A DNA stretch of 64,000 bases from Sulfurospirillum multivorans DSM 12446 (GTDB lineage Bacteria; Campylobacterota; Campylobacteria; Campylobacterales; Sulfurospirillaceae): NCBI RefSeq assembly GCF_000568815.1, contig NZ_CP007201.1:744001-808000 (forward strand), in the 5' to 3' direction. The position numbers and the translations under genes are program-made. This document shows positions 50,278 through 52,225 of the stretch, one piece after another. Under the pieces are notes generated by a model. The model was not told the DNA's origin and ran no database searches. It saw nothing but the letters and a program-made list of their open reading frames with translations. Positions within the stretch are counted from its first letter, which is position 1. Every line of letters begins with the position of its first letter.

Positions 50278-50793
50278 TCATCCTTTATGTTTCGGTTGCT
50301 GGAAAATCATGTAAATGACAAAGGCAAAAAAGGCGACCGTGATGGAGGTAAAAAGCAGTGAAAACGTTTTGACCACAACGTAAGCGACGATCAAAATAGA
50401 GAGCAAGGTTGGCACTTCATTGTACGCACGGAAGAATTTGCCACTTTGCGTGCATTCATCGTTTTCCAACTGCACACGGTAGTATTCCAATGAAAAGGAG
50501 TAAGCGGTTAAAAGCGCAACTACCGTTAATTTAGCGTAAAGCCATTCGCCTGATTCAAATAAAATAGGGTTGATGATCAGCATCGCTGCACCGCTTAAAA
50601 GTGTTGCCCAAAAGGCAGGCAGACCAATGTACTTATAGATTTTGTACTCTTGAATCTTTACCACTTCGACAAATTCGCTTTTGTGTGCGTGTTCAACATG
50701 GTAGACAAAAAGACGTGGCAGATAAAAAAGCATCGCCATCCATGACATAAACGACATAACGTGAAAGGTTAAAATCCAACTGTAATACTCCAT
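50278..50793 (-). CDS. hemJ: HemJ-like protoporphyrinogen oxidase (CopD/UPF0093 family)
   Basis: A 171-residue protein with four or five membrane helices. The N-terminal HVMSFMSWMAMLFYLPRLFVYH signature, with conserved His and Trp, and the later EWLYAKLTVVALL (conserved Lys) are those of HemJ, which oxidises protoporphyrinogen IX in heme synthesis in many bacteria lacking HemG/HemY. The SD AGGAGTGA precedes ATG. Confidence 0.85.
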   Translation of the reverse strand: MEYYSWILTFHVMSFMSWMAMLFYLPRLFVYHVEHAHKSEFVEVVKIQEYKIYKYIGLPAFWATLLSGAAMLIINPILFESGEWLYAKLTVVALLTAYSFSLEYYRVQLENDECTQSGKFFRAYNEVPTLLSILIVAYVVVKTFSLLFTSITVAFFAFVIYMIFQQPKHKG

Positions 50794-50855
50794 CGCTCAC
50801 TCCTGCAAAATAGTAAAGCAATTATAGCAAGTGTGAGAGGTTTTTTAAGGGATTT

Positions 50856-51158
50856 TTAACAGCATTCCATTTCAGCTTTTTCCATCAATTCGATTCCTTT
50901 TTCAAACGCATACGTTTCAAAAAGAGCCGAAAGATAAAAAACATGCGAGCAGATGTGGTACAAAATGTCCTTAGAATCATGCTTAGCAAAAATAGCCTTG
51001 TAATCTTTAGGTATCAACGTCTCAAAACGAATCCACAAACCATCTTTCGCTTCAGGGTAAAGCTCAAAAAGCTCATACATCGCATCTAACACTTGGGTCG
51101 CATTTTCATAGCAGTCGATGTTATGAAAACTGACATATCGATCGCGAATTTCGTCCAT
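50856..51158 (-). CDS. cowN: CowN-like protein (protects nitrogenase from carbon monoxide)
   Basis: A 100-residue soluble protein. DRYVSFHNIDCYENA at the start, HICSHVFYLSALFE in the middle and a C-terminal ECC match the family pattern of CowN (DRYVSF..IDC..NA ... ICSHV.Y...LFE ... ECC), known from Rhodospirillum as needed for nitrogen fixation in the presence of CO. No nif genes are in the window. A sigma-54-type -24/-12 element lies just upstream (51185-51200), which fits control by the nitrogen-fixation regulon. The SD AAAGG is 9 bp before ATG. Confidence 0.85.
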   Translation of the reverse strand: MDEIRDRYVSFHNIDCYENATQVLDAMYELFELYPEAKDGLWIRFETLIPKDYKAIFAKHDSKDILYHICSHVFYLSALFETYAFEKGIELMEKAEMECC

Positions 51159-51184
51159 CTTATTGTGCCTTTTTAAGCTGTTTA

Positions 51185-51200
51185 TGCACGTTGTGTTCCA
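51185..51200 (-). promoter_or_regulatory. Candidate sigma-54 promoter of cowN
   Basis: On the minus strand the sequence reads TGGAACACAACGTGCA: GG and GC exactly 10 bases apart, with TGG.AC and TGCA matching the TGGCAC-N5-TTGCA consensus at most key positions. The predicted start would lie about 16 bp before the cowN ATG. No TGT-N10-ACA NifA site was found in the 100 bp upstream. Confidence 0.5.
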
Positions 51201-51304: not shown

Positions 51305-51694
51305 TTAAAGCTTTTTTCCCAAGTCATTTTGTATCTGCTTAAGCACCATCAACACATCAGCAATATTGTTTTTACAAATACCAAATATCATTTCTGCATC
51401 CAAATCAAAATAGTGATGCGATATAAAATCTCGAATCCCTTTTATCTTTTTCCACTCAATCTGTGGGTAAGCGGTCAAAAGCTTTTTATCGGTGATTTTG
51501 TCGATGTTTTTTAAACTTTCACCTATGGCGATGAGCTTCATACAAATGCTGTCTAACTTTTCTTGTCCCTCTTTGGTGTCCATAAAGTCATTTTGACAGG
51601 TTGCAAACGCACATCGCTCTTGTACGATCATGATAGCTTCGATAATCTGCTCTAAAATATCGAGAACGAGCTCTTTATCATACATAGATGCCAT
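51305..51694 (-). CDS. hepT: HepT-like toxin (DUF86)
   Basis: A 129-residue helical protein with the HEPN RNase/NMP-target motif R-x4-H-x-Y at Arg88-His93-Tyr95 (IRDFISHHYFDLD). It overlaps the nucleotidyltransferase gene by 17 bp. In known HepT/MntA pairs the MntA partner AMPylates the toxin at the Tyr. ATG 51685 is an alternative start. Confidence 0.88.
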   Translation of the reverse strand: MASMYDKELVLDILEQIIEAIMIVQERCAFATCQNDFMDTKEGQEKLDSICMKLIAIGESLKNIDKITDKKLLTAYPQIEWKKIKGIRDFISHHYFDLDAEMIFGICKNNIADVLMVLKQIQNDLGKKL

Positions 51695-51998
51695 CCCTTA
51701 AAATCCTCTTTTTTAGAGCAGGATTCATCTTCTCTCGCAGTCTTACGACATCTACTTTTGTATCAAATGCTTTTTCTAAACGCTCTTTGAAATCATAAAG
51801 CAAAAAATAATCACTCAGACTCGTGTCTATGGCTATATCGATGTCGCTGTCATCACGGTTTTCATCTCGTGCAAATGAGCCAAAGAGGGCAATGTTTGAA
51901 ATGTGGTATTTTTGGGCAAATTCATCTTTGTGATTTTTCAAGTACACCAAAATCGCATCTTTTTTCACTGCTTCCCTCCGCCTATCATTCATGTTCAT
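51678..51998 (-). CDS. mntA: MntA-like nucleotidyltransferase antitoxin
   Basis: A minimal nucleotidyltransferase of about 106 residues with the GSX10DXD motif (LFGSFARDENRDDSDIDIAID). These enzymes neutralise HepT by AMP transfer. ATG 51998 (MNMNDRRREAV) is preferred over the in-frame ATG at 52028; ATG 51992 is also possible. First gene of the pair. Confidence 0.88.
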   Translation of the reverse strand: MNMNDRRREAVKKDAILVYLKNHKDEFAQKYHISNIALFGSFARDENRDDSDIDIAIDTSLSDYFLLYDFKERLEKAFDTKVDVVRLREKMNPALKKRILRDGIYV

Positions 51999-52225
51999 TT
52001 TTCTTAAGGAAGTATAGCAAAAATGCAATAGCTTATCAGTTCACATTCCTGCCATGGAAACAGGAAAATTAAGAAAGTTAAAAATTTAGCTCCCGTCTTT
52101 AAAACAATAGACCCTAAAAAGTGGAAATCCACACTCTAAATTCAAGCCTTGGGCGTAAATTTTTTATTTTTTCAAATAAAGTAAATGTCGCCCACTATTT
52201 GGCTTCACTCTTTTAGAACGTAAAT

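Follow-up and report, generated by a model that had tools for sequence, protein, structure and literature searches.

Why does the gene for CowN, a protein that protects the Mo-nitrogenase (PMC8047169) and allows N2 fixers to go on working under carbon monoxide, stand apart from the nitrogen fixation genes in Sulfurospirillum multivorans, and does the sigma-54-like promoter in front of it make it a member of the nif regulon? CowN, its role and the nif control of cowN are already known (PMC8047169), and S. multivorans is a known N2 fixer with two nitrogenases (PMC4794192). Our approach was sequence-based and covered gene identity, the promoter element and its conservation, the nif genes, co-occurrence and change of place. 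The window, i.e., the whole 64-kb stretch of DNA that was analysed (genome positions 744001-808000), was found to contain no nif genes, as the earlier note had observed for the part in its view. The features are listed in Table 1.

The open reading frame starts with ATG and matched two curated models, the NF033689 equivalog (59.5 bits versus a cut-off of 48, NCBIfam profile search) and PF20543 (81.1 bits versus a cut-off of 27, Pfam profile search), over residues 4-100 of its product. By these matches the gene is cowN, and the identification proposed in the earlier note is confirmed. No other copy exists in the whole 3,175,729-base genome, and a PDB search with CowN returned no relative. The hemJ gene follows on the same strand after a gap of 62 nt (window 50278-51158), a pairing kept in most of the genus, and read-through from cowN into hemJ during N2 fixation is possible. 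On the other side, the HepT/MntA pair (51305-52028) adjoins cowN only in the S. multivorans genome and in its nearest relative, G019; these toxin and antitoxin genes are outside the nif regulon.

Table 1. Features of the cowN locus and of its putative regulators (positions in the window or, where marked G000:C1, in the S. multivorans genome).
Feature	Position	Strand	Remarks
hemJ	50278..50793	(-)	TIGR00701, 145 bits > 138; directly downstream of cowN; synteny
cowN	50856..51158	(-)	N2-fixation sustaining protein CowN, 100 aa; NF033689 and PF20543; single copy
Predicted cowN 5' leader	51159..51174	(-)	inferred from element spacing; AAAAAGG, Shine-Dalgarno-like stretch
Sigma-54 -24/-12 element TGGAACACAACGTGCA	51185..51200	(-)	GG-N10-GC; -11 base A at 51185; top match of the nifH matrix; conserved in genus
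HepT-like RNase toxin gene of HepT/MntA pair	51305..51694	(-)	PF01934, 62 bits; upstream neighbour of cowN
MntA-type nucleotidyltransferase antitoxin gene	51678..52028	(-)	NF047752, 62.1 bits > 60; upstream of cowN
Two sigma-54 (rpoN) genes	G000:C1:1203377-1204603; 1462482-1463705		separate clades, one in nif region
NifA, 465 aa, without Fis-type HTH	G000:C1:1291094-1292491 (L081:5095-6492)		near nif genes

The first G of the -24/-12 element sits 41 nt before the cowN ATG, and its -12 half is GTGC, unlike the textbook TTGC. Its spacing predicts that transcription starts at about 51174, giving a leader of some 16 nt in which AAAAAGG falls at the ribosome-binding position; an AAAAGG motif upstream of cowN is kept in relatives. 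The GG-N10-GC pattern matched 341 times in the window, and eleven other window sites scored as high as the cowN element against the generic sigma-54 consensus. Because the generic consensus does not discriminate, we used instead a scoring matrix made from five distinct nifH promoters, all from genomes of other species. With this matrix the cowN element scored highest among the roughly 128,000 positions of the window, at 14.9 bits versus 11.3 bits for the runner-up, and six positions in 15 simulated windows of the same composition equalled or exceeded its score. The score by itself is thus modest and indecisive against simulated windows, and the case rests on position and conservation. The upstream regions of 35 cowN loci were compared. 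A GG-N10-GC/GT element was present in all 19 primary copies of the genus, with GT in one of them, at about 40-54 nt from the start codon, and 20 of the 35 loci scored above 95% of random pieces of their own sequence. No recognisable promoter of cowN's own was found in several other genera among these loci, and the second cowN copies of two genomes, G004 and G006 (L031 and L034), have no -24/-12 element. Judged by its position and conservation, the element upstream of cowN is real, beyond chance. The candidate promoter that the earlier note had read from GG and GC ten bases apart, with a comparison of relatives as its check, therefore stands, with first rank in the window under the nifH matrix and a near-constant distance in every primary copy of the genus.

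The S. multivorans genome codes for nifH, nifD and nifK at 1.25 Mb, all above the cut-offs in the genome profile search, for nifB at 1.177 Mb, for nifEN at 1.185 Mb and for anfDGK at 1.60 Mb, together with two NifA-type activators and two rpoN genes. The distance from cowN is 0.45 Mb to nifH and about 0.38 Mb to nifB. Both nitrogenase clusters, and the type of each, agree with PMC4794192; the iron-iron nitrogenase of S. multivorans has already been reported, and N2 fixation has been shown there (cited in PMC4794192). Matches to TIGR01282 at 1.60 Mb, which gave the appearance of a second nifD, were rejected as the genes are anfD. Beside anfDGK, this segment (G000:C1:1599470-1602874, L070) also holds a gene of the NifE-like kind and one for an activator of the AnfA type, without anfH, and only one nifH-type gene above the cut-off exists in the genome. 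The claim that this organism fixes nitrogen thus finds its genes in the genome, and with nifHDK and NifA-type activators both present the objection of a genome without nif genes falls away.

The promoter upstream of cowN is of the same type as those of the nif genes. The nifH promoter of the same genome is CGGAACACAATATGCA, and the cowN sequence GGAACACAACGTGCA nearly matches the nifH sequence GGAACACAATATGCA; the nifB and anfD elements are likewise almost identical to that of cowN. A genome-wide search for GGAAYRYNNNNTGCA found 16 sites, versus 4 with the reversed control, and the sites at gene starts include those of cowN, nifH, nifB, the ferredoxin gene by nifE, anfD and a Rop-like gene; nifE is preceded by a related -24/-12 site. 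These results support the view that cowN is one of several outliers, with the Rop-like gene and anfDGK, in a scattered nif regulon. The outlier status suggested earlier is borne out by the nifH-like promoter at such a distance from nifH, and cowN is not the only case. The Rop-like gene (PF05082, G000:C1:345742-346011), a lone gene at 346 kb with a nif-type promoter, is another nif outlier. In some genera (the G035, G027, G241 and G177 loci), nif-type promoters of nifH, nifE or cowN have TGTA in place of TGCA in their -12 half. No TGT-N10-ACA enhancer was found within 500 nt of cowN, and likewise none for nifH, nifB and anfD. Across the phylum, hardly any was found upstream of nif genes (nifE and other species included), even where NifA keeps its HTH, so that its absence is no proof of a model without enhancers.

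Co-occurrence was examined in 249 Campylobacterota genomes that are at least 90% complete. The nifD gene was present in 33 and cowN in 21, and all 21 genomes with cowN also have nifD. Thus cowN occurs in 21 of the 33 genomes with nifD versus none of the 216 without it (Fisher p = 2e-22, not corrected for phylogeny); outside the genus the counts are 11 of 23 versus 0 of 215 (p = 5e-13, likewise not corrected for phylogeny). In seven related genera (G035, G027, G028, G268, G205, G186 and G244) cowN adjoins nifE, nifN or nifH, whereas in this genus most genomes have it in front of hemJ. From this difference in place, it is most likely that cowN moved out of the nif cluster, its promoter being of the same kind. 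One near relative, G010 (L020), has cowN and its promoter, and nifD and nifH were not found in its 99% complete draft; this may be an assembly gap or a recent loss. In another Campylobacterota genome (G241:C1:286578-301018, L133), cowN is split by about 14 kb of DNA that carries genes for a Tn3-family transposase and a resolvase along with metal-efflux-like genes. This is a natural cowN disruption; a programmed excision element was considered and rejected, the insert being a Tn3-family transposon.

The two sigma-54 proteins, RpoN-A and RpoN-B, are 43.7% identical and form separate clades with full support in the tree. RpoN-B adjoins nifEN in several genera, and at least two rpoN matches were found in 22 of 25 genomes with nifD versus 6 of 35 others. 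The base at -11, directly after GC, is A at seven sites (cowN, nifH, nifB, nifE, ferredoxin, Rop-like gene and anfD) and T at three flagellar sites (flgB, flgFG and the flgP-like gene beside flgR); for this split p = 0.008 on ten sites, only three of them flagellar. In Cereibacter sphaeroides, it is the -11 position that distinguishes the promoters of RpoN1 (nif) from those of RpoN2 (flagella) (PMC11999139).

The NifA encoded near the nif genes ends after the AAA+ lid, and HTH_8 was not found in this 465-aa protein even at E 1. It scored 494 bits against TIGR01817, below the cut-off of 528.85, and matched up to position 441 of 534; by this match the protein resembles NifA as far as the missing domain. 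The same C-terminal end was seen in all seven species of the genus that were checked, and the next gene starts directly after it, so that a recent frameshift is not the cause. The NifA proteins of G205 and G244 retain HTH_8, as does the AnfA-type protein encoded in the S. multivorans genome. No anfD match was found in G008 and G013, so that these two genomes probably have no AnfA to help NifA. The flagellar activator FlgR (387 aa) is also without HTH. When named genomes were scanned with NifA, most of the sigma-54 activators obtained belonged to other phyla, and the scan was uninformative.

The CowN proteins of Rhodospirillum rubrum, Rhodobacter capsulatus and Gluconacetobacter diazotrophicus belong to the same family and, as here, come from nitrogen-fixing hosts. 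G. diazotrophicus has a NifA site upstream of cowN (PMC8047169), and control of the NifA/sigma-54 type is expected here as well. The locus in S. multivorans differs from those systems in that cooA and algH are not adjacent, CooA-like and TGT-N10-ACA sites are absent upstream, the neighbour is hemJ and the host is a campylobacterote. With C. sphaeroides, S. multivorans shares two RpoN paralogues, putatively one tied to nif and one to flagella, and a -11 base that differs between the nif and flagellar sets (PMC11999139); no loss of the DNA-binding domain is described for the NifA of C. sphaeroides, whereas both NifA and FlgR lack the HTH here and the functional split is putative. Among enhancer-binding proteins, group 5 comprises activators that have no DNA-binding domain, such as FlgR of Helicobacter and CtcC of Chlamydia, while NifA is placed with those that have an HTH (PMC7175178). 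Like NifA here, FlgR and CtcC are AAA+ sigma-54 activators, but they are response regulators, whereas this NifA carries a GAF domain, and the group to which it belongs is otherwise recorded as having an HTH (PMC7175178).

The best explanation of the locus, and one that we consider highly probable, is that cowN functions as part of a nif regulon whose genes are dispersed. Under a shortage of fixed nitrogen, sigma-54 RNA polymerase would bind the nif-type element at 51200-51185, and an AAA+ activator of the NifA type would open the cowN promoter. CowN would then be made alongside nitrogenase, and the Mo enzyme could keep turning over despite CO. We infer sigma-54 dependence, NifA dependence and CO protection of cowN in this organism. 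The frequency of GG-N10-GC in the window, and the link of cowN to CooA in Gluconacetobacter and Rhodobacter capsulatus (PMC8047169), would fit a chance element with cowN driven by a sigma-70 promoter or by a CO-sensing regulator (CooA or RcoM). We give this very little credence, because all primary cowN copies of the genus have the element at a fixed position, it matches nifH of the same genome, and the CooA-like palindrome GTC-N8-GAC was not found in the 500 nt upstream of cowN. It is equally improbable that cowN is a relic or serves some other purpose unconnected with N2 fixation; its distance of 0.4 Mb from nif and its presence in G010 are in line with such a role, but the gene is missing from every genome of the phylum sample that lacks nifD, and the CowN protein is intact and conserved.

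How promoters are chosen within the dispersed nif regulon is less clear-cut. We tentatively propose that the nif-linked RpoN-B picks its promoters through the core element, with A at -11, and that NifA without an HTH is unable to bind an enhancer. Promoter choice would then come from RpoN-B reading the core element rather than from enhancer binding by NifA. The nif regulon of Sulfurospirillum, cowN included, may on this proposal have given up enhancer-based control, with RpoN-B reading A at -11 and RpoN-A serving the flagellar promoters with T, although we hold this with somewhat less than even confidence. Alternatively, cowN could be read from the same -24/-12 element by the housekeeping RpoN-A or by both paralogues, the specificity of NifA coming from a further helper protein or enhancer site and RpoN-B being redundant. 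The RpoN box is almost alike in RpoN-A and RpoN-B (RRTITKYR), and in G037, G050 and G056, nif-containing genomes from other families, a single rpoN was seen. Against these points stand the place of RpoN-B within the nif region and its tracking of nif across genomes, the different -11 base of nif and flagellar promoters, and the missing DNA-binding domain of NifA; this second reading is a serious but rather doubtful possibility.

In the open literature on CowN and nitrogenase, Campylobacterota were not found in titles or abstract openings. A dispersed cowN with a nif-type promoter in Campylobacterota, and an HTH-less NifA combined with a nif-linked sigma-54, are new with respect to the open literature checked. 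The distribution of cowN means that CO protection of nitrogenase often belongs to the nif set in Campylobacterota. If true, the combination of an HTH-less NifA with a nif-linked sigma-54 would be a second, apparently separate case of paralogues dividing promoters by the -11 base.
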